Source: Oryzias latipes (lineage: Eukaryota > Chordata > Actinopteri > Beloniformes > Adrianichthyidae). From it: 64,000 bases of DNA. The stretch spans positions 16,757,582 through 16,821,581 of the forward strand of contig NC_019864.2 of NCBI RefSeq assembly GCF_002234675.1, in the 5' to 3' direction. The position numbers were made by a program, and so were the translations under genes. This document shows, piece after piece, positions 19,195 to 61,581 of this stretch. Within the stretch, counting starts at the first letter, position 1; each line of letters starts with the position of its first letter. The notes beneath the pieces were generated by a model. It did no database searches, was not told where the DNA came from, and saw only the letters and a list, made by a program, of their open reading frames with translations.

Positions 19195-19659
19195 TTCTGC
19201 ACCTGCAAACACCAAAAGCAGAAGTCAGGAAACAATAACACAGCCTCTCATAAGCATGTGATAGATTTTTGTCATTTAATGTAAAATGCGCACTAAACAT
19301 GTGGAAATCATTGGAAAAATTATATTTAAAAATACCCTTTTTTAAATTAATTTTTTTATAAAGCAAACAGGTTTCACGGATTTGTTCATAAATGACACAA
19401 GAAAAAGACATTTCTGCAGAAAGAAAGGCTGTTGGTCAGGTGGTCTGAGCGCTTTTGGAAAACTGACTCTGTCCATGGTGTTGGAGGGATTAGTGTACCT
19501 CACTCTGTCCGTTATTTCACTTTAGTTTGAATTTTCTGCACAAATTCAACTTTTTTTAAACAAACGCCATGTTTTTAAACAAGATTTTTTTTAAAGGTAG
19601 ATGTGAATACTAATCTTGTCCAGTTGATTTTTCTCCTTTCAGTTAATCCATCATCTTAC

Positions 19660-32325: not shown

Positions 32326-36280
<3,955 letters not shown>

Positions 36281-37849
36281 AGACTGGAAAACCAATTGGT
36301 TGATCGGGAGTTGCCCATTTGTTGTGAAGAACTGCCTAAATGGGATTTATACATTTTGTATTGTATTAAATAATCTTAAATGTTAAATAAAATACTGCTT
36401 TAATGTTTGGAGATTCTGTGGTATATTTGTGCAGCGTTGTTGTTCGCATTGTAAATGTTTAAATAAGTAAAAATACTCTAACTTTTATTTTAGTCACGGA
36501 GATTTTCAATGATAAACCATCAATTTGATTATGGATAAAATGCAACTTGCACTGTGGCCTACATGTGCCATCATGCATCGGGGTGGAGACGAGTTTCCGG
36601 TGTTTTGCTTGTGTTTTCGCAGCTATTCCCGGTATGCATAAACATACTGTAAACAAAAGTTTTTCATAAAAGGGGAAATGGGCACATTCTATTTGTTATT
36701 TTTTTTCTTTTCTTTATTTAATTTGGTTTGTAAATACCACTAAATCTTACTAAGCACACAAAAAAAAAAAACTAGCAAGATAAAGCTCGTGAATCTCGCG
36801 ATATTTTCAGTTTACTTGCAGAACGATGGTTGCACAACTTGTTTGGTAACACAAATGTTGTAAAAGCATTTTTTTGGTGCCGCATGTTCTGCCAAAGAAA
36901 GCAGCAAACTTTCATGCAGCTGAAACAGGAGCACTAAAACAAAGCACGTCTTTAAAGGCTGTTTTCGTCGCGTTGGTAAGTTTCTACGTGCCATGATGAT
37001 ACATTTTACAGTCTAAGTTAACAAGTGCCATTGCACACAAATACAGACTTTAGTTTATAGTTGGTGATGGGCTGAATAATTGAGCATTAGTTATGTTTTT
37101 CTTGTTTGTTAAATCCTGGTGGAAAACAAATCGATGCCTATGTATGACCAAATGTTTTAAAAAATATATTGTTCTTGCAAAATCAGTGCACTTGTTTGTT
37201 AAAAGGGTATTGCACGAGTAGTATTTTGCCATTGAAGATCATTGTTGAGCTTGTTTTGTAGGCCGATTTGAGAGAAAAGTAATTTTCTTTTCATTCATAG
37301 TTTTCCAAGATTCTGCTGCCTCTTTTCTACAACATCACATTTTAAAAAGCTTCACTGGCTTCACGATCATTTCAGAATTGAATCCAAAACATTTCTGTCC
37401 TTTTTTTGAGGTTCCTCTCCTCCATTCATGATCTTCTTCTGAACCCTCTCTTTTGTCCACCTCCTTCAGCTATCTCAGAACCTCCTCCATCCATCCAACT
37501 GCAGCCGTTTCAGCCCCTCTGCCTATTAGCTTTAGATCTCGTTCCCATCTAAACATACCAAAATTCTTCTCCCAAACATTCCATTTAAAACACCCTATTC
37601 TCAGAAGTTTCAAACTTTTTCCTTTTTTTTTGTAAAACTCCCATGTTCTTTGTTGTCTTCTGCAATTTTTAATGTTGCTTAATCTCTTCTGCATCCTTGC
37701 ATGCTGTGAAATACTGTAAAATGTGATGCAAACATGTTCTATCACGAGGGCGTTTTCCTATTTCTGTAGGACGTGGCCACACATGCTGTTTTATTTTTTA
37801 TTATTTGCATTTGCAGAATAGTTTTCATCCTTTTTCTTGGAAAAAAAAA
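36281..37849 (+). promoter_or_regulatory. commd4 3' end, neil1 promoter and non-coding first exon
   Basis: Both genes run left to right here. After the commd4 polyadenylation signal, a reverse ETS motif (TTTCCGGTG, 36594-36602) and TCTCGCGA (36794-36801, a known housekeeping promoter element) mark a likely neil1 promoter. A donor at 36975/36976 (GTTG, GTAAGT) and an acceptor ending at 37816 (TTTGCAG) suggest a non-coding first exon and a 5' UTR intron. The rest is AT-rich. Confidence 0.5.
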
Positions 37850-40407
37850 ATGCCTGAGGGACCAGAGTTGCACTTGGCCAGCCTGTATGTGAACAGGATG
37901 TGTGATGGAGTGGTATTTGCTGGTGCAGTCAGAAAGTCTGAAGTCAGCAAAAACCCAGAGGTGGCCTTCACCTGCGAGGCCTATCGCATAACAGCCGCTT
38001 CAAGGGGAAAGGAAGTGAAGCTAACGCTGACGCCCATCAAGAGTGACGATCCCGATCGTAGGGGAAAAGCAGCTCAGCCCATGGACATAGTCTTTCGCTT
38101 CGGAATGTCAGGTTATTTCCGTTTCACGAGCGAGGACGAAGTGCCCAAGCATGCCCACCTGCGGTTTTACACCAAAGAAAAACCCTGCAAAGTGCTTAGC
38201 TTTGTGGATGCACGCAGGTTTGGAAGCTGGCAGCCCAATGGGACGTGGCAGCCTGACAGAGGGCCCTGTATCATGTTTGAGTATCAACATTTCAGGTTCG
38301 TAAGGCTGAGAGTCTCCTATTTTCACATTCATCATTGAAACGAAAGTCTCACTTCTCATTTGCACAGCCAAAACACGGCTCACTGAAAGTAATAATGTTT
38401 CTGTAGGGAGAATGTTTTGTCAAATCTGTCTGATCGGGCTTTTGACCGGCCGATTTGTGAAGTCCTGCTGAATCAAAAGTACTTTAATGGCATCGGAAAC
38501 TACCTCAGGGCTGAAATCCTTTACAGGTAAGGGTGCAAACTGGACACGATGAGCATCAGTCCACATACTGCTAAAGAAATATTGGTTTAATTGGGAACAT
38601 GTTAAGCAGTCAGGCTTAGACAGTCATTGGGTTATTGGGCAGAACCCTTAACTCAACATTTCCCTCCCAGCTGTGCCAGTTATCAGTATTTTAGCCGAAT
38701 CTTTGAATAAAATAATTTTTTAAATGTGTTAATGTATAATCAGAGTCGGTGTGTTGTTTACTATATTACAGTAAATCACTCATGTCAGACAGGTTTGACA
38801 GTTGTTTCGCTGTGAAATGAGTTTGCTTACCATGGCCCAGTGGTCCCACATAAACATATGAAGTAGAAGATAAAACAATTAATCTGCAATGAATTCTGTT
38901 TTGTTTCATAAAATGACTCATGATTTTTACTTTGATCAGCTTGGGTAGAAGCTGTTACTGCGAGGCACTATTATGCAAAAGCTATTTTTGACCTCCCCCT
39001 TTCTTTTTAGGTTAAACATCCCACCCTTCGTGCCGGCCCGGGGAGTACTGGAGAGCCTTGGTGCAGACGATTTGTTTGAGAATAAGAAGCCTTTGAAAGA
39101 TGTAGCCACAAAGGTGAAACAGCAAAGTTGTGCATTTTTTTTTCAAGCTGAGAAAATACAGTGTCTGTTATTTCAGACAGTATTTTCTTTGTTCCTCCCA
39201 CATCTCCCCAGAGAGCGAAAAAGAAAGAAGTGAAGCAAGAGGCAGGTGACCTCCTCAGGCTTTGTCACACAGTTCCTTTGGAAGTCATCAGTCTAGGTGA
39301 GTCTTTGTGCGTTTAATTTATATATTTGTTGGTTTACTCCAGTCATATAGTTCCACAGAATGCTTTCTAAATATGAAACTTTGGTGTTTTAGGTGGGAAG
39401 GGCTATGACCCTGAGAAATCAGACTACTCAGCCTTTCAGGCGTGGCTGCAGTGTTATTACGTTGATGGAATGAAATCTATTCGGGACCACAACGGCAGAA
39501 CCATGTGGTTTAAAGTGGGTGCAACATTGTAATGAGAGAAATTTGAAAGAATTTGGTTTAATGCTAATGTTTCTCTATTTGTTTCAGGGAGATCCTGGTC
39601 CCATGGCACCCAAAAGTAAGCATACACTTTTGTTAAACCCAATAGAATGAAAATTGTGTTTTTAACATGTTATTCTGGTATTTTTCTTATGATGGAGGAC
39701 ATATATAAAGAAAACTAAACTTAAAATTGCATTTCAGAGTATGTCTTTATTCAAATAGTTGTAAATCACCAGCATTTTCTTTGCCACTAAGATGGGTGGG
39801 CCACAAGCTCTCTGCTCCACCCTATTCTGATGTATGGTGTGGGACTTTAAAAGAAAAGAAAATAGGACCTAAACTCTAGTTTTATTGATATTTTGTTTCT
39901 GTCAAGATTCAAAATCACCAAAGGCTAAAAAGAGAATTAAGAACGAGGACGACCATGATTACACGAACAAGAAAAAGGTAAAAACCATAACTTTCTTGCA
40001 GAAATGGCATCTAAAGCTGCGATTCTTAAACGTTTCGGTTTCTTTTAGAAGATCAGAAGTCAGTCTAAAAGTGCAACAAAGAAAAAGGTGGTCAAAGAGG
40101 AGGGGGAGACCGAAACATCGAAGGTAAATGAAGCAAAGACAAAGGAAGCTATTGTTGCCAGAGCAAAGACAGGAAAGACCCAGGAAACATCAAAACCACA
40201 GATCGGAACAAGATCGAGTGCACGTCAGAGGAAGGCCAACACAACAGAAGGAGCGGGAGGTAACCTTGCTGCTGAATCCAAAATTAACTTCCTGTAGCAG
40301 AGAAAAAAATGAGGACTTTTAATGTTTTTTTTTTTCATGTTTTTGTTTCAGACCAAAAGAAACTAAATGGAAAAGGATCAAGGAAGAGCAGAAAACAGGA
40401 AAACTAA
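37850..40407 (+). CDS. neil1: Endonuclease VIII-like 1 DNA glycosylase
   Basis: Bifunctional DNA glycosylase / AP lyase of base-excision repair, acting on oxidised pyrimidines in the nucleus. Exons: 37850-38295, 38407-38526, 39011-39113, 39212-39296, 39393-39514, 39588-39615, 39907-39977, 40049-40259, 40352-40407; 413 aa (human 390 from memory). Catalytic Pro2 and Glu3 (MPEGPELH) and Lys54 (SRGKEVK) are in place. The helix-two-turn-helix reads NQKYFNGIGNYLRAEILY, and the loop containing the human editing site is GGKGYDPEKSDYSAF (Lys254 here). The zincless-finger region includes HNGRTMWFKGDPGP. The C-terminal ~110 residues are Lys-rich, low complexity and probably disordered. AATAAA lies at 40439-40444. 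A truncated DNA-element copy sits in intron 6. Confidence 0.96.
39628..39842 (-). mobile_element. DNA element with GACCCACTC ends, copy 3 (truncated)
   Basis: In neil1 intron 6. It keeps only the end that is on the left in the copy at 29435 (ATAGAATGAAAATTGTG versus CCAATGAAAATTGTA) up to CTCTGCTCCACCCTATTCTG. The other half is missing. Confidence 0.6.
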
Positions 40408-40550: not shown

Positions 40551-43500
40551 TCACAAAACGAGCAGAAGTGTAACAATCTGAAACGGTCTGAAGCTCAGCA
40601 TTATTCCATCCGATGTGACGTGTGCCGGCCGGGCGGGGTCCCGCCTCTCCAGGAGGTCGCAGCTGAAAGGAAAAAGGTTTTTGTTCTTAGTCAACAACAG
40701 AGAAATCCAACAGGAGCAGTCCAAACACTTACTGCCAGGCTTCTTTGACTGGAAGAGTTGTGCACAGAGTTGCAGTCAGGCTGCTCCCGTGTGATTCATA
40801 GAGACGCACCACAAGGGTCCCTTTTGCGTCCTCAGCCTGTTAGTGAAGACGCTGGAATCAGTTTCCTTTTATGGAAATCTTCAAAAGGTCAGAATGATAC
40901 CTGTTTAATGGTTTCAAGTATGACTGGTTTGGTAACGGAGAAGGAGCTCCATGCTTTGGTGTCAGGATGGCACTGCATCCGCCTTAGAGGGAAGTTAAGG
41001 TTGTAAGCAGCCTGGATGACCGAGGCGTCCTGAAATGAGCCTATATGGCGAAAACATAGTATCACATGTCAAATGCATCTTGAGTTACACTAATTTGCAG
41101 CAAAAAAAAAAAAAAAAAAACGACCTGTGTGTGGCATGATGGCATAAGTGAATTGATGAGCACCCATGTCAGCTGTAGAATCTGGAGCTTTTGGTGCTCT
41201 TATCCTGAAAAAGAATCAATTTAGGTCAAAAGCGGGTCACCCGTCAACAGCATTTGATACAGCTGACTTGAGAAGCAAGGGAAACCTCACAAGGACAGAG
41301 TCATGGTGTTCTTGTGGATGGAGTAACCGTATTTGCTGTCATTTAAAAGGGAAACTCCAAAGTTGTGCTCAGAGAGGTCAGCCCATTTGTGACCCCAAAC
41401 CTAGAAAGGAAATAAAAAATGTCAAGTCTTTAAAAACCATTCACATTTCTGGAATGAATTATATATACCTCAAACCTGGCCCAGTCCCAGGAAGTGTTCC
41501 AGTGTGTTGGTCTTTGCAGATGCCCAAACTGGATCTCATAGGTAGCATTGGGGCTACGGACTCTAACAGGAAATTCCACCTTAAGAAACTTGTGAGACTC
41601 CGCCCATTCCACCTGAAGGGATAAGATGTACTTTTTTTTTACTCAACAAGAAAGTCTACTGTTGAGAGGTTAAAAGAATGATGCATTTACTTTAGTGTTG
41701 AACTTGAGATAAGGACTCATGGCATCCATGACAATCTCCTGGACGATTGTGCTTTTGTCACTGATCCTGAGGGTGAAGCTGACGCTGGCCCGAAGACCGC
41801 CAGAGGACACCACATGAACCGGCTGTATGACCTCCTCCACCGGCTTCCTGTGGGATCACCATCTCTTATTCTGCGCCACGTGTTTCCTGAATTTTTCATG
41901 ACACAGGGATGCACTCGACATCTAAAGAACAGTGACTGAAACCTTGTCTGAAGGTGGTAGTCCATTACATCCCAGGCATCCCAGTACAGGGGGACGTCAT
42001 CAAACACGACAAACTGGTTTCCGCGACAACCATCGGAGAGGGCCTCCCTGAAACAAATGTCGGTTATTGCTTGTGTGGACACATACAAATACAGGTGTCC
42101 AGATTTTGGTTTTGGCATTACCGGTTTGCATTGATTAAATGCAGTGAGGCCAAAGTGCCATCTTGATTGATGGCAGTTCTTAAAATTCCATTCTCCATAA
42201 CCACAGTGCCGTCAGCCTGCAGCGTCAGACAATCCCCGGTTAGACACAGTTGACGACAAATGCAATATTCCTGTGTGCAGTAAATACCTGGCAGGTGACA
42301 GAGACTGCCGTCACAGGTTGTATGGCTTTGATAGTTGAAATGCCAATGCTGGGAACTTCCACAAGAACTGACAAGATAGATTTAGGAGCATCAGAACTCT
42401 GTCTTCCATATACATGAAAAGTGTTTTATGAATAAAGTTTGATTTGATCAGAAGGTTAGAGAGCAGCAGAGTAACTTTTATTGATATTTTCACACCCAGA
42501 TCAAGTCCGCCGGGACCATCTTTTATCTCGATTACTTCCTGACGTTCCCATGGAAGGGAGTTGAAGAGCCCAGCAGTGCTGCCCTTTGACCCCAAGGCCT
42601 CACACGCTTCATGCAGAAGGATAGAAGCATCAGCTCGGATGTCTAAAATGAAGTGGGAAAAAAAGTGGAGGATTGTAAATACATGTAGCTGACTAAATTT
42701 TGAGTAAAAAAAAATAAAAGAAGTCACCTTCATAGTACTTTAAAGCATCCTCCACAACCATGGCTGTGCAGCTGCCGGGAATCACATCATGGAACTGGTT
42801 TAGAAGAAGCAACCTGTCAGACAGACAAAAACATTTTTTTTTAAAATCAAATTCTTGAATTATAATCTAAACATGAGCAATTACAGATCTTGTTTGAACC
42901 TCCAGAGCCGCTGCAGTTTTTCCTGAGGATATGAAAAGGTTTTGCTTCGGCACAGGGCTAAGCTGGAAGCTATCTCCACATCACGAAGCAGCGCCTCACA
43001 CTGGCGGTTCTCTCGTTTGATCTGCAAAGGGCACAGCAAACATCAAAAGCTAAATCTCAAATCAACATTTCAGTCCATTTAGATGCAAAGCCAAAAGGGT
43101 TTAGATCATTAGTGTCCTTTTGTTTTAGTTTTTTTTACATAAATACTTTAATTATTTTTAGAGATCAGGTTATTTGTGTGCCGTTCTGCAGTGATGCCTC
43201 TTTCAAGTCAGTGATCCAATAAAAATGCTCATTCAGTGAGTTTCCTCGGACAAGCGATTTAAAATCAAGCCAGGTTTTTAAAGCTTTGTCATAATTCCTA
43301 ATATGGTTTGAGCTTTTGAAATATTCATATATGACTTACATGTTTATCTTTAATAACAGTTTATTAAAAACCTTCATTAATAACTTTCAGAAATGTGTTG
43401 ATGGCAGAGAATTTCTTACAGTTCAACCAGGCCAAAAAGAGGTTTTGTTTTTGATTCTAAAAGACAAGAGAGAGAATATTTCATCAAAACAAATTCTCAA

Positions 43501-46500: not shown

Positions 46501-49372
46501 TGAGCTGGCATCTGGCTCAAAACTTTACGGATGGATATTTGCTCACCATTTTCTTGTTAGCTTGGGGTTTTGAGGGGCTGTAAGCTAGTGGAAGAGAGTC
46601 TAAACAAAGGGATCATGGGAAATAAGTGGATCCTTCCTTCCACGCCAACAGTTTTACCCACAACTCAGAGGGGAAATTTTTTTAATTTAGGCTAAAAACG
46701 GCATGATCAAAATGAAAAGACCACTGGGAACGATTTTAAAATAGATCAAAAGTGGATTTAAGTTCTAAGATTACCATTTCTACCCATGTTCCTCCAACTG
46801 GAATGAACTGGCCTTTCTTCACAAAATACTGAATCCTGGAGAAAAGTCCTGGGTACCAGCTCTTTACCCACTGGAACTGCTGGGCCTTAAGCAACACAAA
46901 CATCAGAATCAGAATTACTTTATTGATCCCACACGTGTGAAATTTGTTCGTCACCATAGCAACTGACAGCAGAGGGAAAAAAAGACAATATAAAAATAAA
47001 AAAAAACAAGAACAAAGAAAATGTAGCATAAATGCAAACAACAAGGTGGTATAATTTAAAAAGCTATTTACAGAACAGTGCAGGGAAAAAGATGTGCAAA
47101 AGAAATGTGCAAAAAAGAAACAAAAAATGTGCAAAGGTTATCTGTTGCATTGTGACATGGTCAAGCATGGAATAATGTATCAGATTGGTAGAGATCCCCA
47201 AAAAAACAAGTACTGATAAAGTTTACCTGAGAGCAGGTAAAGGTGAACTCTGGGTTCTTTTCCATTAGACTGATCACCGTCACCCAGCTCCGGCCACACT
47301 TCCGAATTGTTTCTTCATAGGGCCACAGCCAGGCTGCAAACAGAGAATCTTGTTTAGGCACCACCTACTGCAATAGTTTTGAAGAACTGAAAACAATGGA
47401 CAGAAAAGAGAAAAGTAAAAAAGAGAGACCAGAGTCTATGTGGCAGTGACCCATTGCGTGGACAGTGTGTTGGCTTTCTCCGTTTCGCTGGTTAAAGAAC
47501 TTGCAAGCCAGGTTGTGTGCTTCAGAGAAAGAGCTGGGATCTGTGGGGTCACAGCGATTCACCATCTCATTGACTGTGAAAAGAGCCTGGTACCCTCGCT
47601 GCTCTCTTTCTCCAAGTTCCTGTTTATCAGGTGCAAAAAAATGATGCCAGTCCAATGCCATGTATCAACATGTTTTCACTCAAATGTGACAGTACCTTAA
47701 CAATGTCAACAAGCATCTCAAATTCTGTCAACAGCTCCCTGACATCCCTGTTGAAAATCACCAGCTCAGCTTTGTGAATAGAAAATCTCCTGTTTGGGTC
47801 TGGAGTTGCAATCATGGATCCCTGTCCAGCTCCAAACAGCCCATTGCAAGCCACCTCCACGTATAAGGTGAAACTGCAGGATCAAGGAAGGAGGAAATTA
47901 GCCATTTAGAGAGTCAAAATAATTTTGGATGGGCAACAAAGTCCTATTTTAGTCAGCTGACCTATGAGGGTCTTCACTTTGAAGACAGTCCGATAGGATA
48001 TAGCTTGTCTTTTCCCCTTCTTTAGTCAAACCCTGAAAGCAAAGACTTTACAGCTGTAGTTATCCACCCAAAAGGCTTCTGTTTAACAAGTCTACGCTTA
48101 ACCAAAAACTGAAAAGCTTAAGCAACAAGAGATCTTTAGAATTGTATCTCCATAGTAACTATATTACCTGTACTGGATGTCCATCTTTCCAGACCATTCC
48201 TTCCCCATCACTTTCCCACAAAAGATGGACCTCTTTGCCCCTCCACGATTCAGGAATTGTCAGTGTCACTTTAAACCAGCAAGTCCACCACCTTCAAGAA
48301 GCTTTGGTTAGAGGTTGGACATCCACACACACAAAAAAGAAAAACCTATTTGTACCTAAAAACCTCACTCACGTTGGCCCAAAGGTGTCTCCCACTGTGT
48401 ACGGTTCAAACTTCTGCGTGGAAGCCTCAGAAAATGGAATTCTCTTGGGGGAGATGAATGAGGCAATGGACTGCAGGGGGCAGGAGTCTCCATAAAGTCT
48501 GCAGAAACCAACTCAAAAAATTCAACTCAGATAAGTGGTAGCATGTTCTAATAATGTTCCTTTTGGATTATTTTGATGTGAAAAAACAACAGTGGGCTGA
48601 ACTTCAGGAAACTAATATCTGAATAGATTTAGCATTAATTTTTGTTTACTTGTTTGTTTGTTTGTACACATTTCATTTACACTTGATTATCTTGCAAGAA
48701 ATACAAGGACTCTGGAAAACTTCAGCTGCACTGTTCAGTACCCATGAATTTCTCTCTGAGTCACTCTAGTTGAATTTTTTGGCTAAAGATGTCCTGGATT
48801 GATTTTAGGTCAGTAAATTGGATCGTTCTAAATTAATCAATATCATATCAACTAGGAATCGGATCAGCAACCTTATGAATTGAAATAAATCGACCCCTGA
48901 CCCCTAGTTAACATCTTATATTTTTGTTCTCAAAGTTGTTTTTTTGTATTTCGAACAAAATTAGGAATGATATACGTCACAACTGTGTCTTTTTCAACTT
49001 TCTATTGAATACAAACACTAAACTCAAACTAAATTATTTATGTAGTATTATTTTATTATAATTTTTGTACATTTTTAACCTTTGATCTATAATTTGACTG
49101 TTTGCAATTTATTGTTTTTCGTTGTTGAGCTTATGAATGCTCGTATGCCCTTCACGTCTGTAATCTCACAGGTTGCCAATAAAGTTAAATAAACATCTGA
49201 ATGTCAAAGCATCACAAAAGCTTTCGTTGCTTCTTTTATTTCATTCACTGAGTCTGTTGTTGGAGCCTTACCGTCCTCTCAGGTTGCAGTCTGTGAAATA
49301 CACGTCAGAGATAAACTTCTCGGCTCTCTCCAAAAGTGTACGCCTGTTTTTCAACACGGGTTGGCGATACAT
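40551..49372 (-). CDS. man2c1: Cytosolic alpha-mannosidase, class 2C member 1
   Basis: GH38 enzyme trimming free cytosolic oligomannosides from glycoprotein degradation. Exons in transcript order: 49272-49372, 48373-48498, 48168-48291, 47962-48032, 47696-47873, 47430-47619, 47227-47333, 46775-46885, 45685-45777, 45463-45579, 45287-45382, 45053-45198, 44615-44738, 42900-43021, 42728-42813, 42496-42642, 42288-42367, 42122-42216, 41943-42047, 41691-41847, 41469-41612, 41291-41400, 41125-41204, 40901-41040, 40733-40836, 40551-40662. All 26 join in phase, giving 1021 aa. Metal-site motif GHCHIDSAWLWP (His258, Asp262), predicted nucleophile Asp372 in [24 protein letters not shown], and [16 protein letters not shown]. 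The ATG follows a TTATTTCAG acceptor-like tract, so a non-coding first exon is possible. Weak donor GTCTCT after exon 6. No signal peptide, as expected for a cytosolic enzyme. Confidence 0.96.
43690..44575 (+). mobile_element. Degraded LINE 3' end
   Basis: In man2c1 intron 13, antisense to the gene. It resembles the C-terminal part of a fish LINE frame, with shifts: a TTCCAGAACTCGGCTGCA block, then AGTATGAGCCCTCAGCGACC, then a TTTAATCTGGCTTTTAGCTG stop region. The usual 3' UTR phrase GTAAAGCACTTTGTGTTAC follows at about 44525. Several stops and frameshifts. Confidence 0.6.
45879..46412 (+). mobile_element. DNA element with GACCCACTC ends, copy 4
   Basis: In man2c1 intron 8. It starts GACCCACTCTGCTCATC and matches the copy at 4396. 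It carries a short open stretch beginning [16 protein letters not shown], possibly the relic of an element-encoded protein. It ends where a reversed copy begins. Confidence 0.65.
46413..46767 (-). mobile_element. DNA element with GACCCACTC ends, copy 5 (reversed, truncated)
   Basis: Matches 29435-30039 in the same sense (GAGCTGGCATCTGGC, GGGGCTGTAAGCTAG, AACAAAGGGATCATGGGAAA, ATAGATCAAAAGTGG). One end is missing at the junction with copy 4. The other end finishes about 7 bp from the man2c1 exon 8 splice donor. Confidence 0.65.
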
Positions 49373-49456
49373 GCTGAAATAACCACAAAATATCCAGAAA
49401 TAAGCAGTCTTTTGTGAAGAAATTTAGTTATCCCGGAAGCTGCACTTTTCCGCGAC

Positions 49457-49465
49457 CCGGAAGTG
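49457..49465 (+). promoter_or_regulatory. ETS-type promoter motif of man2c1
   Basis: CCGGAAGTG, the consensus ETS/GABP site, within 100 bp upstream of the man2c1 coding start in a locally CpG-containing stretch (CCGCGACCCGG). It fits a TATA-less housekeeping promoter. Confidence 0.5.
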
Positions 49466-49501
49466 AATGTTGTTTACTCAGGCTATAGTTACAATAATCA
49501 A

Positions 49502-49515
49502 CCGCTAGATGGCAG
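49502..49515 (+). promoter_or_regulatory. Candidate CTCF site
   Basis: CCGCTAGATGGCAG matches the CTCF core CCRSYAGRKGGCRS at all 14 positions. It lies between man2c1 and ca12, about 130 bp upstream of the man2c1 ATG. Confidence 0.5.
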
Positions 49516-50690
49516 AGCAGCTCAACACCAGCAAAAGGGAAACTGAGCGTGCATATGTGAGAAAGTAGAAGGTGGTGGGGATGTCAAATGTAAAATTCTA
49601 AGTATAAAGCAGTTTAAGAAACATACTCTCGAAATAGAATTGCATTTGAAAACATTTTATTGATCACAGTGTTTATTTACAATCACTTAACACAATGATA
49701 CAGTTGTAGAGAACACAAGTTATTGGCTATAGATAATTCTCTTGGAAACCAGGGAAACAAGAAGCTACACTTAGCAATTCACATGCAAAAACTTTATTGA
49801 AAACTTGTAAGTTATGTGTTTTTGTAATTATAAATAACAAACAAAAAAAACTATACCAAAAACTCAAAATTGAACTGAAGGGAAAAGTCATTTTACGATT
49901 GTTTAACCAACTAATTTGATCTTTTAAAGTTTATTCCATTCAAACACTAGGCAATAACATTTGAATATACATTTAAAGAAAAAAGGAAACTCAGAACCAC
50001 AGACAGTGATTCCCAATTTTCTTTTACAGTTTTAACTTTCCAGCGTTCTGACTTGACAAGTGCTTTCCTGAGAGGCTGTTGTGCTGAGAAGTGAGTCTTG
50101 TGAACGGACAGAGGTTAGAAGTCAGCCCACTTTCAGCCTGAGAGCACAAAAGCCTTTTTTTGTCGCCCTCAGCATTATCCAAAGGAAAGGCGCTGCATTT
50201 GTATGCAGCTCAAAACCCTTTTATTATAAAATCCATCGAGCAAGTCTAACAACAGGGTTAGCGGAAATGTGGTACAGCCCGTGCTTCTCTGGCTTTCCAG
50301 TAATGATGCATGTCTCTCTATTGTTTGGAGTGTGGTTGGGCTTTCTACCTTATTAGTGCTCAACTGTGGAATGGGACCCAAGATCGGATTTGACCCAAAA
50401 TTCAAAGTTCAACTCAAGCTGTGCTCTGCTTACCTGAATACATCCTAATAGATCCGTCCTACAGACCCTCACCACACTGTCAAGACAAACATGTCCTTCC
50501 TGGTACAACACAGGCCAAAACAAAAGCCGAACTTAAAGGGAAGAAAACTAATTTTCAAAAACCTAGAGCTGCATGCAAACTCAACTGTTTATGCACGCAT
50601 GCATAAACGTTCAAAATGAGCCACAGAACAATTTCACCAATACAACAAATGAGAAGTCAATAGTCCTGCAAAGATCCTTTAAAGGGAGAA

Positions 50691-53600
50691 TTATACTCTG
50701 GAGCCGTACTCGTCTCGGTCTCCAATAGTGTATCCGACTCTTTTGCTTTCATTATGATCTGCAGCAGATCTGTAAAAATGACAGAAACACATGATACCAA
50801 GGAGAAACCTGGAAAAATCTGAAACGTTGTTCCAAAATGTGGGATAATTATCACAATCAGCAAACACCTTACTTCTCAATTTTCTCTGCTTGGTTGTCGT
50901 TTTTACTTTGAAATGAGAAATTACCCTAAAGAGATGTTTCATGATCTTTTCCTGTTTTGTCCCTTGTGGGGTCACGGGGCTGCCGGAGCCACTTACGGGG
51001 GACAGGGGGGGACACCCTGGACAGGTCGCCGATCTGTCGCAGGGCCACATATCACACACCCATTCATTCTCACACCTATGGACAATTTAGAGTTGCCAAC
51101 AGACCTATGGAGCATGTTTTTGGACGGTGGGAGGAAGCCAGAGACCCCGGAGAGAACCCACACATGCACGGGGAGACATGCAAACTCCACACAGAAAAGT
51201 GTTCTGTTTTCAGGTCCCCCAGCCGGGACTTGAACTGGGGGCCTTCTCGCTGTGAGGCAAGAGCGCTAACCCATGCAGAAACCATGTGTGCCAATAAAAA
51301 TTATTACAACTTAAGGAGGAAGTTATCAAGACGTTTAGAATTGTTTATTGGTTAAAAGCTTCCTCCTCGTCATTTGGTTCACTTCCACTTGTGATAAACT
51401 TTGGATGACATTTATTGTTTGATTAAATGATCATAATGAATAGTTTTAACAATCTCAAATTTTCTTTGGTTGCTTTTTTGATTCAAGTTTGATTCAAGTT
51501 TATACATATCCAGATGTGAATGTATAAAAATCAAGTTAGTTCTCATGTTTTTATTCAAGGTCCACAAGGCATCTTTTAAATCACATCCTGTTTTTGTAGG
51601 TTATTTTTAAGCCTAGTTTTTTTCTACCTTCCTCTCTTATATTGTGTTCTAGAGCCTGTTGAAATCTATTTTTTTTTTCATTTGGAAAAAAATGCCTAAC
51701 TTTCCTCATGAATTCAAATCTAATTCCTGGAAATTATTAGTTTGCAGAAACCCCAAAAATGTTTGTGTCAATATGTGAAAAAAGTGAGACACAGGTTCAA
51801 ATTTAGTGTTTTAAAACTCAACCTAATGGGGGCAGAATTCCTATAAAGTCCCTGACTTGTGGGGCAATTAAGTTTAATTGTTTTCTTGAAATAATGTCTG
51901 CAGTTTTCCATTTTGTATCTAAATTATACAGCTCAATCTATAAAAAGAAGAATGGAAAGCTCTGCCTATGCTGGATTCACTGGTTGCAAATTTAGAAAAG
52001 CTGTCATCTTGTGTGAAACAAAAGGCTGATTTCAAATTAAAATAAAAGTAAAAAATAAACTTACCTCTTTTGCTTAAATAGGCAGCAAATGAAAGAGACT
52101 ATGAAAGCAAATCCCAGTGCTGAAATCACCAGAATAGGGGCCAGTAAGCCTGCAGAGCAGAGAGGCTCATAGTTGTTACTCTTTTACTTTGTTTTGTGAA
52201 AATTACGGTAGTAATTGGATGTTAATAATACCCTTAGAAAAGCAAAAGTAGACTCTATTATAACTGTTCATGTTGGAGGAGCAACATAATTGTTAGACGA
52301 TGTGAAGATAGCACAGTAAAAGATGGGAAAAGCCCAAAGACATAAAGGCAACCTACCGGTGTTGATCCAAGAAAGGTCATCTGAGTAGCAAAAGACACAG
52401 AAACAGTAGAAAGGAAACTGACATAAATGTACTTTATTAAGCGATACACAAAGTTACCGGATTAAGATGACAAACAAACCTCGCCATGACAGAAGTGCCA
52501 GATTTGACTTAAAATAAATATTGTAAAATATAGTTTTTCAGTGACGTTTCAAGGCCAGTCTGTTCTGTACCTCAGAGTTATTTAATATAATTAAACATCA
52601 AATTGTTATTCCTCAAATATTGTAAAAAGAATTAAAGAGAAAAGAGAACTTAATCCCCTCACTACAAATTGACAAGAGTATAACATTTAGCTGTTACAAC
52701 TACCATGACAGATACTGTAGTCTGAAGCAGGATAATTATACTGACAGTTTGATCCATTTTCCCTTTTCACAAAGACAAGTGCAGCTTAAAATACATGACC
52801 ATTTTGTTTTGAGAAAGTAGTTAGAGTTTATTAAAAAAATGTCTAACTACGTTTCCAGAACCATTTCTGCTTTCCAGTTGCATGCATATCCTGCTGAAAG
52901 AAGATCAGGGATTGATGTTTCCACATTTCAAGGTATATAACGGTCTGCAATGATGATTAATGTGTCAAAGTGGCAGATGCAGTTTCGGAGCATAACATTA
53001 ACCAAAGCATCAATCACACTGTCTTCACCAGGATGCTTTTACACATACACTGCATGGTGTTGTGGGTTTCCCTCCCAGACAGCACATGTACGAGTTACGC
53101 AAAGAAAACATGATTCATCAAAAAAGGTTTTGATTTATTTTTAAAGCACACACGTCCATTGTTCGCGTCTTCAGTGATGGACACGGTAGAGCAATACAGC
53201 TCCAAAGGTAACAGACTGTGGTTCATTATGTATTCTGACACTTTTCCTTCCAAATCAGCAAAAACCTCTCCAGAAAATTCAGTTACTGCTGGATTGAACC
53301 ACACAGCCCTGTTTTTCCTACTTATGGGTATCAATGAGCCTTGGCTGCCAAGGTTTTTTCATTATGCTGACCACTGCAGACTAAAAAACTGCACCTTTGG
53401 AGATTAACTGAATCAGTAATCCACATGTCAGCGTTTGTCAAATTTCCTAAAATTTGCACAGATTCTCAAGTTTGTACTTCTTAAACTGGTTTCTAACACT
53501 TCCGCCAATATGCCCCACTCACTAAATTGCCCCCCATATGAAGATGGAATCTGTTCAGAACCCTTAATTTTTGAGTGGAAAGTCATCTGTCCTTTCAGCA

Positions 53601-54457
53601 GCTAATAACATCTCTATTCTGTACCCTAAAGTGCAGGGAAATCAGCATTTCAAGAAAACGATGTCTTGAAATGCTGTGTCTTGGAATCATGGTCCATTAC
53701 AGGACATTACTTTTTGGTTACTTTCTTTGTATCACCTGCAGCAAAAGAACATAACAAGCTAACAGGACAAATGTAAAACAAAGTATTTGACATCTAGATG
53801 AGCGGTTATATGGTGTGTGTTAATTTATCTAATTATGAATGAATTCCTCATCAACACTCATTTTGTCCTGAAAAGTGCTGGAGCCTATCCCAGCTACTGT
53901 AGGGTGAAAGTTTTCTGAAAAAAATCCACCTAAAAAGCCGTTTTTTATAGCTGCACCTACCCCAAAAAGGGCTAACAACTGTTGGGGAAGAAACTACATC
54001 CAGGAGCAGCACAATGTAAGCATATAAATCAGAGAAGATCAAACGATTCAGTCTTCTTCCAGGATTTCAAAATAAATACAATTTTCATTTGTTTTCAACA
54101 GTTATTTGTTAAAAAATATTAGTTTATTAAAGCCCACAAGGCTCATTAGTACATTCTAAAGCTCTTACTTTAGTGTTACAATTCTGTTCTTCCACTGTAT
54201 TCATTTATGCTTTAAATTTAAAATGAATTTTGAGCAACAGATGCATACGTCTTCTTCTGCATGATTGTGGTACCTGGATGTACAAATTTGAAGTATTGTT
54301 TATTTTTAATACAAGAAGTCATAAGGTTAGCTTTCTTAGCCTACTCATATTTTTGCAAAAATACCATCAGCTCTGATGGAAAATGTGTGCAAATGCAAAT
54401 ACAGAGAAGGGCAGTCAGTGTTGAGACAGGACTACACGACTCATTGAAAAAGAAAAA

Positions 54458-54523
<66 letters not shown>

Positions 54524-57500
54524 GAAATAGATACAGCAAATCACAAATGTTTTATGTGCACATACAGTTAATGAAAAATTACTTGATTTCATTTATTATT
54601 GAATAAATGAAGTAAAGATAGATTTAAAAAAATTAAAGTTAAGTTATTCACACGCAGGGGCCCAAAATATTTACAGCAAATATGAACATTGATAGAATTG
54701 TAAGAATGTACCTAGTCTTCCCATTCCATTGGCAAAAGCCAAGGATGTGGGTAACCCTGACTGGGAGTTTTCCTGGAAGCAAATGAAATGCTGCTATGCT
54801 TTGTTATTTGGCCCCCTTGTTTGATTGCAACAGAAGTTTCCCTCTGATTTATCCATGCTTTTGTCAGAGTGCGTTCCAACTCAAGAGCCTCATCTGTCGG
54901 CCGTCCACAAAGAATTTGTCTAACAGTGGGGAGAGCTAAGTGCGACTTGCACTCCAGGTAGCTCTTGAGGTTCAGTTCAGGATAAACTGCGTCTCTGAGA
55001 GCCTGAACAAGATGATTCTTCTTGTGAGACTGTTTGAGCTGATGGAAAACTCTCTGCTCCAGTGAGCTATAGTGCAGTGTGTCTCCAGCCAGTCCCAACT
55101 TTCCCACAAAGCAGTCGGTCTGGCTCTTCCTCCTGAAAGATGGACTCGTCATTTGTTGCTTTGGTTTGGCCAGACTGTCCCTCTGCCATTTCTTGAGGTC
55201 TTTCCTCCTGCCAGCTTGAAGCTTCTGAGAGCCGCTTGGTAGGAGCTTATGTAGCTCTTCATCAGCCAAGTCTGCTAGATCACCAACCAGCAGCTGCTGA
55301 ATGATTTGCTTCCTGGTGTGTGGGGATGTGACTGTAAGAATACCATGCAGTCCTCTGCCTGCATCAGACACAGAGCCAGTGTGGTTAAACATCCCAGGGT
55401 ATGGGGCGCTCCTCAAAACGATTTAGGTCTTTAATTCCCACCATGCAGCAGCGTTGCCATAACAATGCACTAAAAGCCAAGCCATAAACTTCTACATTTT
55501 TTTTAAGAAAACCAACAGTAAACAATCTATATTACACTTTTAGAATATGTGTCATGAGGAGAGTGTGGTACACATGCATGTTTGGCCCTGGTTCTAAGAT
55601 TGCTAAGGTTGTCAGTGCTTTTCAGTAGATCAGCAGAATGGTTCATTCTGTATTAAATATCTGACTTTCTAACATAAAACTCATTAAGATCAGTTAGATT
55701 CAGCACAAAGCACAGCCACAAGCAGGTGAAAAGCCAAAGCCACACAACACAGCCATACAGACAAAAAGAGATCTCCATCATTCATCCAAACTTGTTAATT
55801 TTTAATCATCAATATTGGCATCAACTAATGCCTTAGTCACATGCTTCAGAACTGGAGTTGACCCATACGGACGCTGCGGGTTTTTGACTTGTCCGGGCCC
55901 CTGTGCGGCCTCATCTTAAAGGGAACACAGGTGTGTCTTGCAGTTCCCTTGTTTCTTGAGAAGCCACCATAAAGGACGTCTTGGAAATGGAAGGTACCAT
56001 TGTCGTTTGTGTGTAGTAAGTGTATCGTGAACTAATTGTTGGAATAGTGTCAATTATGACACTTATTACATGTGGCTGACATTGTCGTACAGTGACTTCA
56101 TGCGCATTCTAGTCATTAGTGTGGTGCGTACTGACTGTATGTGATATGTAAGTGCTTGTAAAATGCCCACATAAACCACACTCTGATTGTCTAACCTACT
56201 CATTTCTTAAAGTCAGACTGCAAGCACAGAGTTCGCAAGGAGCGCACATTTATCACTTAAACAGCCCCCCCCCTGTTACACAGTGCACAGGTTTTGAGGG
56301 GGTAGAAAAAAATGAAATACCCATATGACATGCCTGCAACTCAGCTACTTCACCCTTACTTTAACCTTATGTGTTGTTTAAGTGTTTGCTACGACCTGTC
56401 ACTCGCAGCACGTTCATAGAAAAAATTGCGCATGAACATTTTTGCTCACTGGGTTTTCTACAATTGTAAAATTTCCTGCAGGCTGTACAAATTTGCCCAT
56501 TTTTGCCCGCAGACGCCCGTATCCACCCACTAAGGCTATGCAACTGACATTGCACTCATGCACTAACAACAAAGCAAGCATTTTCGAAAACCTATAGTTA
56601 CCTTCTTTAAAAGATGCCAGGACAATTCTGCTGTCGACCAGCTGTGGTTTCCTGTAGTTGCTCTGAAGTGGGATTGTGGCTGAATCCTGGGCAGAGGAGG
56701 AGTAGAGCGCTGTAGCCAGGGCATTAAACTGGAGACATAAAGAACAGAGTATCAGCACAAAGATTTTCCCATGTGAATAAACTGTTTTTGAATAATATAT
56801 GCTTAATTGTGTTCTTAATCTGATAAACAGTTATTTAGGAAAAAAACTGTACAAACTGAAGTACCTGTTTTTGAGAAACCGTCATGGTATTTCTGAACAC
56901 CGTCCACAAAACACTGGGATAGCACGGGGGAGTCGTCAATGAGCCATCATATCGATAATATTCATCCAAACGAGCAGGCAGCAGGGCTCGAATGTTAAAA
57001 CCAGGCACCTGAACTTTTTGATCTGCCAGTTAAAGTGAGAAAAAGCCCGGTGGCGAACGGTTCAAACTTAAATGTAAAATCCACCGTAGTCCAATAAATG
57101 AGCAGCTGACTTACAGATATGAAAACATTAGAAACAATGTTTTGGACAAGAGCTGCTTATTAAACCAAATCATTTTTTTTTTCAAACTTTGTTCATAAAC
57201 TGCAGAAAATCTCTACAAAAGCATTAAGAGACAAACTCTACAGAGAAAGGCTCCAGTTGGACTTTAAATTACAAACCTTCTTGCTTTTTCTATGTTTTCA
57301 TGTAGACTATACACAAATTTTAAATGTTTTAAATTAAATATTATCTTGCTATAGACTAAGAGTAAAATTACAGCAGATTCTTTCTACCAACCCTAACCCC
57401 CCTCTGAAGTAAACAGGAGTCAGAGAGGTATGTGGGATGCAACAGGGGGGTTGGGAATTGTAAAAAAATTACAAATTTACAAACAAATTTGCAAAAAAAA

Positions 57501-60500
57501 TTACAACAAAGAACCAGAGCTCCATAGATCTACTTTTGTGTTTTCTTTTTTTACTTTTTGTAACGAAGCAAAACTATTGCTACATTTCTGTACACAGAGG
57601 CAAGTTAACTTCCCTCCAAAGACATGGCAGGCAACACAGGAGAAGCAAACAAAATGGCTCGCACTATATAAAAGCATTTAAAATTTGGAAATGCATGCCT
57701 ATGTAAAGGAATGCAAGTTTTGGATTTGATATGCAACATGTTGGAGTTACTTTAACTTTACTTTAACTTTTACTGCAAATTAAAGTTAAAAGCTTTATTC
57801 ATTAAAAAAAATACCGTGCTTAAGTTAAAAGGAAATGACCAGTGCATTTCATGTCATGGGGGACTGATCGCCCTCTTGACTTACTTCGATATTTGATGCC
57901 GTTGATGAACCTTAAAAACTGTTCAAACGTTGGATTAAACTCTCCGACCTGTTTAGAGATCACAGTCAGCTAGTCAGATTTTGCGAGCACAACAAATCTG
58001 ATCTAATCTCTCAGTTTAACTCACCTCAATGAGGACACCCAGCACGGCCAAGCCATCAGATTTGTCAACAGCATAGGATATATTGGGGTACTTGTCTGAA
58101 TTGTAGTGTACTACGTGCATCTGTTGAGAAAAAAAATACGGAAATAATGCTACATATTGAATAGTTTATGGAGAAAAGGTGTGTTCTTTTCTGTCTGTTG
58201 TCACAAGAGTTCCTGGACTGCTCAATTTATCTTTTTAGTCGAAGTTTACTGAAATTATGTTTCTTTCTGAATTTTATTTTAAACTCAGCTGAACTAGCTT
58301 TTTTATTATTAAAAATCTGCCGGTTTAAACAAAATAATGCAAGAAGTTCATGTAGGATTCCTCCAACTGATAGCCGATAAAAGTCTCTTTCATGTTCGCA
58401 ACACTTTTTACAGCTGACAACTTTATGGTAATTGCTTTATATCAGGCATTTATTATGTAAACTACACTTGTTGACAAGTCAGAAATAGAGGACACACTTT
58501 TGGTAGAAGCTGAATGAGAAGCAACCTGTTAGTGATAGGATTTTGACTTGAACACTAATGTGAGTTTGTCATTCTAGCCAAATTTGATTCTTTTGTATAT
58601 ATGGAACATTTGCAGTATTTCTGGGAAATGCCCCATTATTGCTGGTAAAACATGTCATCACACAGTTGCGGTTCTGAAGCCTGGAAAAACTTCAAATGAT
58701 CTGTGGTCTTGATGTGTCTGCGTAGAATTTATCGTGAAACTCAGGTCAAACCACAACACCTCACATGCGGCTGTGCTTCAGCTGGGTCACGGTAACGTGA
58801 AAAGACACACGTTCCAGAATCTACTGACTATAATTAAATTGATGGCACATTTAAATGAACGGGCTCTTTTTTCACCTTGTTTGAAGTTTTACAAAGTATT
58901 CTGCTTGAGTAAAACTAAAGTAGATCGTTGTGAGGAAAATGCTTACAGGGCTTGACGTATTAAACCAAACAGACAGACACTTCTTTCAAGAGGTGGATGA
59001 AAGCCACAACATATAATTGTCTGGTGCTTTAATCCCTTCAAGCCCTACAGGAGTGAAGCATTGTACTTTATGTCCACATACATAATTAGACTGTTTCATA
59101 CACTGGCCTCTGTTTTCAGTAAAAGCAGCTTGAAGACAAGATGTCTTATTATCTCTTATTGTAACTGGTGAAAACAACGTTTGAGGGAACAAAAAGAATT
59201 TTCCTCTCCAAAAGGTCACTAGTAGTAGTATTTTTAAATGTTTTTTTTTAATCCAAAATAATATTCAGGTTGCCTTAATTACTTTCAAAATGTGGTCCAT
59301 GAGCTCTTTTATTGGCTTAATTTCTGCCTTAGCATCAAGAACATGTGATTTTCTTGATAGATTCTTCTGCATTATCTGCACTAACTTTGATGTGTGTCAG
59401 CTTCAGTGATCTTTCTGCCAGGTGAAAGTTACACGCTCAGGCATGTGTCATGTACCAGAGATCCCAACATCTGAGGTAGCACATAAAAAAAACCTGCATG
59501 CTGGACATATTTTCGACTGATTGTTTTTACATCACAAACATTGTTGCATCATGTTGCGTCCTGTTGTCTGTTTTCATGTTAACTTAGCTTCCAAGAAAAT
59601 CTGAAAAATGAGGACGTAAGAAAATGTAAAGCTGACATAAAATAAGAAGTTTTATTATACTTGCATATCTAAACACAATTACATTTTGGTTCCCAGCAAT
59701 GTTTGTGCCAGCTGAAAAAAAACAAATACCGGTACATCAAATGTGAAAAGGTTAAATAAATTTCCAATATAAACAGTTTTTTTTTAGGAAATGAAGCTGA
59801 TTTATTACTTTTTGCTGTGTAAAGGTTCTTATTTTAAAGTACACTCAATATTATGAAGGTGATGCCTGCACCGTTTTCTCAAATCTAACATTCATTTTTG
59901 CACTTTGAGGCAATGTATTGATTTTTCAATGTTAGGAATTTTTTTAAGAGTTTAGGAATAATATAAATATTGCAATTTTTCTTTTTAATCTACTTATTTT
60001 AAAAGAAGTGAAATAGGGATAGAGAGTGCAAAACATAGTACAAACGGTATAAAATAGGTTTATTTATTTTTAGATTTTAGAAATTTTCTTGAGTTTTAGT
60101 TGTTTACATCTTAGCTTCTAATCGAGCATTTACAGTAAACTGATAACCAATGTCCAAGCAAAAATAAGGGTTTAAGTTTTTATGCTTTTAAAAAAAGGTT
60201 TCTTTCCTCAAAAATGTACATTTTCACATATTTTTCTAATTATTTTTCTTTAACCCTTCAGGTTGGCTAACTTTTGACCCAATAACATGCAAAAGATGTT
60301 TTTTTTAACAATGATTCTTATGAAATAATATAAAAGAAATAGAAATAAAATAATTGTAATTAGGTGTTATGGTGGATCCAACTCCATTACCTCTGCTGCA
60401 TACTGTTTGCTGTTCACCATGTGTTCAGAACCAGCGATTTGACTGGAGGAGCCCCAGTGGAAATGCAGCTGAGCTGCACTATAACGATGCTGCAAGCTTG

Positions 60501-61581
60501 AGATGTGCATCTTCGAAGGCAAAGATATTTGCACTGCAGATCAAAGGACAGAAAGTTTCAACACACAAAGCAGAGCAACAACCTCTTCCAACACTCATTA
60601 AGCATCAGTTTTACCCTTGACTGAACAGATAAGGTCAGCATGGCCCACTCTGTGAAAGCGGCGTGACTGTATTTAACATGCTTAATGGTGGAGTGATGCT
60701 CAGTGTGCTCCACATGTTTGTCATGAAAAGCCTACATCAGCTTCTTTTGTAAACACGTCACAGTGACGATGTCATTCAGTTTGCGGGGTAGCGGCCTGTC
60801 AGGTATGCGCACATAAGCATTTGTCTGAGCGTTGGATCATGTCACGGCAGTTTATTTATACAGAGTTCCCTGTGATGAATCATTAACATTTTTGCACACA
60901 CAGTCTCCCTAAAATTCCTGGTGTATGGCAGCCCACTTGGGCAGCTCTGCAAAAGAATTTTAAATGTAACAACCCTTTAACGTGAAACACTTTTGTCTGC
61001 ATTCTATTCTGGCAAGAAGCAGTTATATGCAAGACTGACTCTGGAATTGCACATTAAAATAAATCGAGTTTTCTCAATGCACCAGAGCCCAAGGAATGGA
61101 CATCAAAAAGCTTTCACCCATATTTTCCAAGAGAAAACTTGGAGGTTTTTCTTAAGCAAAAGGCAGTTAAGATAATGGGAGAGTCATTACAGAAAATTGC
61201 TGCAGCAGGAGGATTTTCCTACCATTTTCTTTAAACTGACCTAAGAATGTGGTTTCTATGGACCAACATCTCTGATGAAGACACTCCTGTTTTATATTGG
61301 ACTTGATCCTAAATGTTTACAGACACCTGTTTTTTCATGATAAATTGAAATTAATATTTTGAAGAGAAAATAATAAACGGAGTAGATCAAATTTTACTTA
61401 CATGCATGTCCATTGTTACCAAGAGTCAGCTGCTCGTCTGGGGACAGGTTGTAGTTTTGAACCTCAATAGGTCGTAAAGTTGGGTCAAACCTCAACAGCT
61501 CTGACTTGATGTCTATTGGAGACTGGAAAGAACCGCCACAATATGGATAGTGTTTGGACCAGTGGTGCTCTCCCTCTGGTC
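50691..61581 (-). CDS. ca12: Carbonic anhydrase 12, membrane-anchored (5' exon not found)
   Basis: Extracellular carbonic anhydrase (CO2 hydration, pH control) with one membrane span. Exons in transcript order: 61402-61581, 60391-60533, 58025-58120, 57885-57948, 56865-57022, 56602-56728, 52357-52380, 52065-52149, 50691-50769; about 318 aa are covered. The first exon seen starts in phase 1 at [17 protein letters not shown], so an upstream exon with signal peptide lies in a long intron or beyond the window. Zinc ligands are in LHFHWG and MHVVHYN, the proton shuttle in NNGHA, the substrate pocket in GSLTTPPC, and Cys pairs (YPYCGG, TPPCYP) as in secreted CAs. NYNLS and the overall match point to CA12 rather than CA9 or CA14. 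A 24-nt microexon (stem), a TM helix ([19 protein letters not shown]) and a short tail ending GSRV follow. The phases reject the other frame of the last exon. Confidence 0.93.
50945..51290 (+). repeat. Dispersed teleost repeat, LINE 3'-tail type, young copy
   Basis: In the last ca12 intron. It contains CACCCTGGACAGGTCGCC, ATCTGTCGCAGGGCCACATA, GACAATTTAGAGTTGCCAAC, GGAGGAAGCCAGAGACCCCG and ATGCAAACTCCACACAGAAA. It is less decayed than the copy at 7440. Long frames on both strands here are products of the repeat. Confidence 0.7.
53855..54060 (+). repeat. Fragment of the same LINE-tail family plus unknown repeat
   Basis: GCTGGAGCCTATCCCAGCTA at about 53878 matches the 7440 and 50945 copies, but the similarity ends after about 50 bp. 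Confidence 0.45.
54467..54519. repeat. TA dinucleotide microsatellite
   Basis: About 26 TA units preceded by an A-rich run, in a ca12 intron just downstream of the nested gene. It is likely length-polymorphic. Confidence 0.95.
54592..54597 (-). terminator. Polyadenylation signal of the nested gene
   Basis: AATAAA on the minus strand, about 115 bp past the stop codon of the 54712-55392 gene. It fits a compact independent transcript. Confidence 0.5.
54712..55392 (-). CDS. Unrecognised single-exon protein gene nested in a ca12 intron
   Basis: I do not recognise this protein. It has 226 aa from the first ATG ([19 protein letters not shown]) and ends [12 protein letters not shown]. The frame is open eight codons further to a TTG, with an in-frame TAA at 55423-55425, so 55392 is the only good start (G at -3). 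An acidic/Leu patch ([20 protein letters not shown]) leads into a Lys/Arg-rich stretch ([19 protein letters not shown]), then a mixed helical-looking region ([20 protein letters not shown]) and a Ser-rich tail. There is no signal peptide, TM helix or transposase-like motif. It is the longest single open frame outside the recognised exons and sits alone in the 4.2-kb intron between ca12 exons 52357 and 56602, on the same strand. A perfect RFX X-box lies 61 bp upstream and AATAAA downstream. Alternatives: retrocopy, or alternative last exon of ca12. Confidence 0.65.
   Translation of the reverse strand: MFNHTGSVSDAGRGLHGILTVTSPHTRKQIIQQLLVGDLADLADEELHKLLPSGSQKLQAGRRKDLKKWQRDSLAKPKQQMTSPSFRRKSQTDCFVGKLGLAGDTLHYSSLEQRVFHQLKQSHKKNHLVQALRDAVYPELNLKSYLECKSHLALPTVRQILCGRPTDEALELERTLTKAWINQRETSVAIKQGGQITKHSSISFASRKTPSQGYPHPWLLPMEWED
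55453..55466 (-). promoter_or_regulatory. X-box (RFX site) upstream of the nested gene
   Basis: ATTGTTATGGCAAC on the minus strand matches the X-box consensus RYYNYYWTRRNRAC at every position. It lies 61 bp upstream of the nested gene's ATG, the usual spacing for RFX-driven ciliary genes. Confidence 0.55.

Follow-up and report, generated by a model that had tools for sequence, protein, structure and literature searches.

A candidate host gene derived from a Gypsy-type Gag capsid in a carbonic anhydrase intron of Oryzias latipes

The carbonic anhydrase intron and its open reading frame

The window analysed here, a stretch of 64,000 nucleotides from the genome of Oryzias latipes, carries on its minus strand a gene which is identified by its sequence as a membrane carbonic anhydrase. 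Matches to the carbonic anhydrase family PF00194 were found on this strand at 61388-61573, 60388-60537, 58001-58129 and 56838-57023, two of the four running past their exons into a stop, and the exons surrounding the intron of interest were delimited by eye (Table 1). The gene is presumably ca12, as opposed to one of its sisters (ca9 or ca14, for example). Open reading frames (ORFs) elsewhere in the window, at 17056-19215, 23179-23637, 37805-38338 and 42311-42733, presumably resemble ISLR2, SEMA7A, NEIL1 and MAN2C1, which cluster at human 15q24.

The intron between the last catalytic exon and the transmembrane exon has a length of 4452 bp and is in phase 1, with agreeing phases of the flanking exons. 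It harbors, in the orientation of the host gene, an ORF encoding 226 amino acids with its start ATG at 55392 and a TAG stop finishing at 54712. This frame with its ATG, an AATAAA about 115 bp downstream and a fully matching X-box about 61 bp upstream on the same strand had been described in an initial annotation of the locus, all of them nested in one intron. The nesting was borne out and each element was recovered, the AATAAA following the stop after 114 nt and the X-box being separated from the ATG by 60 nt.

Table 1. Features of the intron-borne ORF and its host gene (positions in the window).
Feature	Position	Strand	Basis or remark
Last catalytic exon, carbonic anhydrase gene	56602..56728	-	By eye; donor GAAG/gtaact
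Carbonic anhydrase intron containing the ORF	52150..56601	-	Exons by eye and PF00194 matches
X-box consensus match ATTGTTATGGCAAC	55453..55466	-	14/14 to RYYNYYWTRRNRAC
Upstream ORF, 19 codons, its TAA overlapping the main start	55385..55444	-	Sequence inspection
226-codon ORF, putative capsid-derived gene (stop included)	54712..55392	-	ORF calling; Gag homology
Capsid N-lobe, residues 96-163; sole part of the ORF significantly Gag-like alone	54904..55107	-	0/1000 shuffles attain score
Weakly aligned C-lobe start, residues 168-212; major homology region mostly gone	54757..54891	-	4/10 invariant columns retained
AATAAA	54592..54597	-	Sequence inspection
Transmembrane exon, carbonic anhydrase gene	52065..52149	-	By eye; ctctgcag/GC ... 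AAGAG/gtaag

The short upstream ORF, through its overlap with the first bases of the main frame, could alter translation of the latter. Farther upstream, the region 55825-56535 consists of a dispersed high-copy repeat with 2979 first-look candidates and matches of about 66-83% identity, and the interval 55393-55824 is covered by none of the 45 other matches listed for this repeat (best 40 of the 2979 candidates scored). The surroundings of the ORF start show an observed-to-expected CpG ratio (CpG o/e) of 0.40 at a GC content of 39% and therefore contain no CpG-island promoter.

The open run of the ORF is bounded upstream by an in-frame TAA at 55423-55425 and comprises 236 codons. In 60 random 64-kb sequences with the composition of the window, the longest open run had a median of 155 and a maximum of 188 codons. 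Among random introns of 4.4 kb with the GC-richer composition of the ORF itself, 15 of 1000 attained 236 codons, so that the length of the ORF is only moderately surprising by itself. Length was down-weighted for this reason, and the case for more than a chance frame is decided by the homology to Gag proteins described below. Codon usage was considered as a mark of the coding frame, with a single ORF nearby as the training set, and rejected, since it failed to discriminate the ORF frame (0.049) from two other frames (0.045 and 0.043).

The ORF lies on the same strand as the carbonic anhydrase gene and downstream of its last catalytic exon, which would fit its use as an alternative terminal exon of ca12, adding a capsid-derived tail to the enzyme. 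However, the in-frame TAA is located only 30 nt ahead of the ATG, so that a splice acceptor would be needed within these approximately 30 nt, and no convincing one was seen there by eye. This makes an alternative ca12 exon extremely improbable. A separate gene consisting of one exon is plausible and is preferred here as the better reading.

Homology to Gag capsids of Gypsy-type elements

A search of the whole genome (734 Mb in 25 contigs) with the 226-aa product detected, beside the ORF itself, at least 23 other places with E<=1e-3 and 29-39% identity, a lower bound since 37 candidates were scored. No second close copy of the ORF was among the scored places, and its status as a single copy rests on this protein search. 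All but one of the 23 matching places fall inside residues 73-213 of the ORF, the remaining one beginning at residue 46. A profile built from the Gag frames of ten elements scored the ORF with 54.9 bits, compared with 5.0 bits for the best of 2000 shuffles, and the best Gag-profile domain spans residues 103-188.

The relatives are Gags of Gypsy-type elements. The piece adjoining locus L031 contains reverse transcriptase, RNase H and integrase according to Pfam, and locus L004 shows a zinc knuckle (CCHC-like) which scores under the curated cut-off. Locus L007 encodes a MYND finger (L007:2611-3339, plus strand; Pfam E 1.3e-10) in the reading frame that follows Gag and directly before a protease-like stretch, at the position where L004 has its CCHC-like knuckle.

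When parts of the ORF were compared with Gag separately, residues 96-167, the N-lobe of the capsid, reached a Smith-Waterman score of 120, whereas the null scores did not exceed 59 and none of 1000 shuffles equalled the N-lobe. The closest element match was L003 with 45% identity over 58 aa of the N-lobe. Neither residues 168-212 nor residues 189-226 were significant when tested alone against Gag, as 438 and 170 of 1000 shuffles, respectively, attained their scores. A Gag homology of the N-terminus (residues 1-95) that seemed promising by eye was rejected, because its score was attained by 95 of 1000 shuffles when Gag N-termini were used for comparison and by 441 of 1000 when full Gag was used.

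Conservation of single columns was compared as well. Columns that are invariant in the ten element Gags are retained by the ORF in 11 of 15 cases in residues 97-167 and in 4 of 10 cases in residues 168-212. Among Q181, E185, F190 and R193, which we take to be the major homology region where the C-lobe begins, only E185 is kept. At a looser cut, counting columns shared by 8 of the 10 Gags, 19 of 37 versus 5 of 17 are retained, which is not a significant contrast (Fisher p 0.15).

By these comparisons the ORF is assigned to a Gag-capsid-derived family of Ty3/Gypsy type. The initial annotation had proposed an independent single-exon gene of unknown family; its independence stands as plausible, whereas the unknown family has to be given up in view of the 23 genome matches, the profile score and the shuffles of the N-lobe. 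Pfam named no family in the ORF up to E 10, which says little because it names no Gag capsid in two of the element Gag frames either. With regard to the PNMA family, with its PNMA-type capsid and N-terminal RNA-binding domain, this silence of Pfam is equally uninformative. A sequence search of the PDB with the ORF returned RadA matches only, at chance level (E 0.21-0.68), a PDB search with the A1 profile gave no match up to E 1, and relatives were confirmed neither in viral contigs (four pattern stretches) nor in GTDB contigs (34). Single-sequence AlphaFold modelling resulted in a mean pLDDT of 40 for the whole ORF and of 50 for residues 94-167, and a Foldseek search with the latter model gave 0 matches; the models are poor and were kept out of the evidence.

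Domesticated gene or gag relic

The ORF is, in our view, probably a host gene domesticated from an ancient gag of Ty3/Gypsy type (Metaviridae). The main rival to this is a non-functional gag relic which is open by chance. Such a relic would stem from a rare diverged lineage that inserted fairly late, lost its pol and long terminal repeats (LTRs) by deletion and has acquired no stop yet. Lineages of this kind do exist in the genome, for example the single-copy or low-copy loci L003, L004, L007 and L009 with about 41-51% identity to the nearest other reference. The Gag homology moreover spans a minority of the ORF, codon usage is uninformative, and with matched GC content open runs as long as this one are not especially rare.

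Against the relic stands first the decay seen in its relatives. Among 29 related loci, 9 carry stops in the aligned part, 8 are split between frames (including L003) and 12 show neither. The 9 stop-bearing loci are 76-96% identical to one of eight reference element frames, and stops are thus already present in copies less diverged than the ORF, which is open although it is at most 45% identical (over 58 residues) to any element frame. Under neutrality, the probability of finding no stop is 0.055 at 0.1 substitutions per site, falls below 0.01 by 0.2 and amounts to 0.0005 at 0.3, indels not being counted. The CpG o/e of the ORF (0.20, versus 0.28-0.45 in the 15 element frames exceeding 1000 nt) suggests an old sequence.

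A further point against the relic is that neither an LTR pair nor a remnant of pol was found near the ORF. Direct repeats of at least 25 nt were absent from 48000-61500 in an ungapped search, which strongly decayed LTRs would escape. Of 97 open frames (at least 120 codons) from 31 element loci, reverse transcriptase and integrase included, compared with the 64-kb window, matches with E<=1e-3 were obtained for the ORF only. The LTR pair and pol of an intact LTR retrotransposon are therefore not seen around the ORF; what is seen is homology to a Metaviridae Gag capsid in an intact frame with neither of the two found beside it, as in domesticated capsid genes.

The pattern of substitutions points in the same direction. 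In comparison with eight elements, identity of the ORF is 0.36-0.44 at first, 0.53-0.63 at second and 0.27-0.36 at third codon positions, i.e. second positions are retained and third positions are saturated. A two-ratio codon model (113 codons; 9 of 11 aligned sequences, the near-duplicates L011 and L021 being excluded) rejects omega=1 for the whole ORF branch with 2dlnL 7.46. An omega of 0.3 lies inside the usual 95% limit and 0.5 barely outside, the profile at values of 0.7 and above not having converged. The test is not clean, because the ORF branch contains an element phase of unknown length and synonymous change on it is saturated, as is evident from a branch length that sits at its bound. 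Purifying selection on the ORF as a host gene after insertion is likely and supported, short of being shown, because of this element phase, the uninformative codon usage and the 15 of 1000 GC-matched introns with open runs of equal length. Altogether, we regard the chance-open relic as rather unlikely.

The X-box, possible function and known capsid-derived genes

An association with cilia or sperm had also been claimed for the ORF, with the X-box as its sole basis. The consensus RYYNYYWTRRNRAC is matched 12 times in the window, with two sites contributing a match on each strand, versus 6.7 expected, and 3 of 100 shuffles attain 12. After-the-fact arithmetic gives a chance of roughly 1% for a match on the appropriate strand no more than 150 bp ahead of the start. 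Compared with the palindrome GTTGCCATGGCAAC, the site ATTGTTATGGCAAC has 3 mismatches, and 5 sites of this quality occur in the window versus 3.2 expected (26 of 100 shuffles attain 5). Two sites in the window, 46950-46963 (GTCACCATAGCAAC) and 33516-33529, fit the X-box consensus on both strands; judged by this both-strand fit, GTCACCATAGCAAC is a better palindrome than the X-box of the ORF.

A ciliary or sperm gene under RFX control through this X-box would be compatible with a capsid origin. The position of the full match, on the same strand and close to the start, agrees with it and is weakly informative, and gonadal expression is described for some gag-derived genes (PMC11261967, PMC11011659). 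However, the consensus is common in the window, and the sequence searches of solved structures gave no meaningful match of the ORF to a ciliary, axonemal or other chain. We consider such a gene unlikely. With an X-box as weak as this, the proposed cilia or sperm role is unsupported; expression in germ cells or ciliated cells is possible by analogy, and the X-box does not show it.

The domestication favoured here would have begun with the insertion of a Metaviridae retrotransposon into an intron of a ca12-type gene, oriented like that gene, followed by retention of the gag part by the host. The capsid N-lobe as the subunit-contact surface would have been kept, and the C-lobe would have been lost together with the greater part of the major homology region, so that the protein is probably unable to assemble a capsid alone. 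The ORF would be expressed from its own transcript, with the X-box perhaps, on weak grounds, forming part of the promoter. In the lattices of retroelements, N-lobes touch each other and C-lobes join the units, and the truncated human Gag-like protein RTL8 binds the N-lobe of PEG10 and reduces PEG10 particles upon co-expression, as described in PMC11684626. From the RTL8-like anatomy of an N-lobe without a C-lobe we infer that capsid-type contacts would be the most likely mode of action, by which the protein may bind its partners and either poison the lattice of a related Gag or serve as an adaptor.

RTL8, a member of the SIRH/RTL/Mart genes of placental mammals, is according to PMC11684626 likewise truncated, Gag-like and similar to the capsid N-lobe only. 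In contrast, the protein encoded by the ORF is longer, with an unrecognised N-terminus of 95 residues and a degenerate tail, and its binding to a Gag is hypothetical. An N-lobe is present and a C-lobe absent in the ORF as well, the contrast after residue 167 having p 0.15 at the looser cut. RTL8 is mammalian and stems from another Metaviridae lineage, sushi-ichi. More generally, ARC, PEG10, RTL and PNMA are presented in PMC11011659 as domesticated Metaviridae capsid genes, and the ORF shares with them a capsid-derived frame outside an intact element. In contrast to the ORF, which is known from one fish genome and misses the C-lobe, they are kept across many mammals with selection and expression measured. 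Lattice poisoning, one of the modes proposed here for the ORF, is described for the capsid fragments Drt2 and p22/p18 of yeast Ty1, which block a related element through the C-terminal capsid domain (PMC12530519). Ty1 belongs to the Pseudoviridae, and the ORF differs in retaining the N-lobe. Within the genome, loci L003, L004, L007, L009, L010 and L017 share the homology of the capsid N-lobe (at most 45% over 58 aa), but have a full Gag and, where examined, pol.

The ORF would be a further, apparently separate domesticated Metaviridae capsid gene in a fish, reduced to the N-lobe and placed in neither RTL/SIRH nor PNMA. Co-opted gag genes across eukaryotes were reportedly surveyed in 2021, and the literature searched (titles and beginnings of abstracts) names no gag-derived gene in a ca12 intron. 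A more far-reaching proposal is that this N-lobe was domesticated in the fish lineage as a germ-line restriction factor, driven by the X-box in spermatogenic or ciliated cells and capping or poisoning the Gypsy capsids of the same genome; we regard it as speculative and quite doubtful.

Domestication of Gag is best known from mammals, and here related element families, some of which have long open frames, share the genome with the apparently domesticated fragment. If expressed and conserved, the ORF would offer a tractable case in fish of a truncated capsid protein turning into a host gene, and would inform whether proteins consisting of an N-lobe only generally restrain capsids as RTL8 does.
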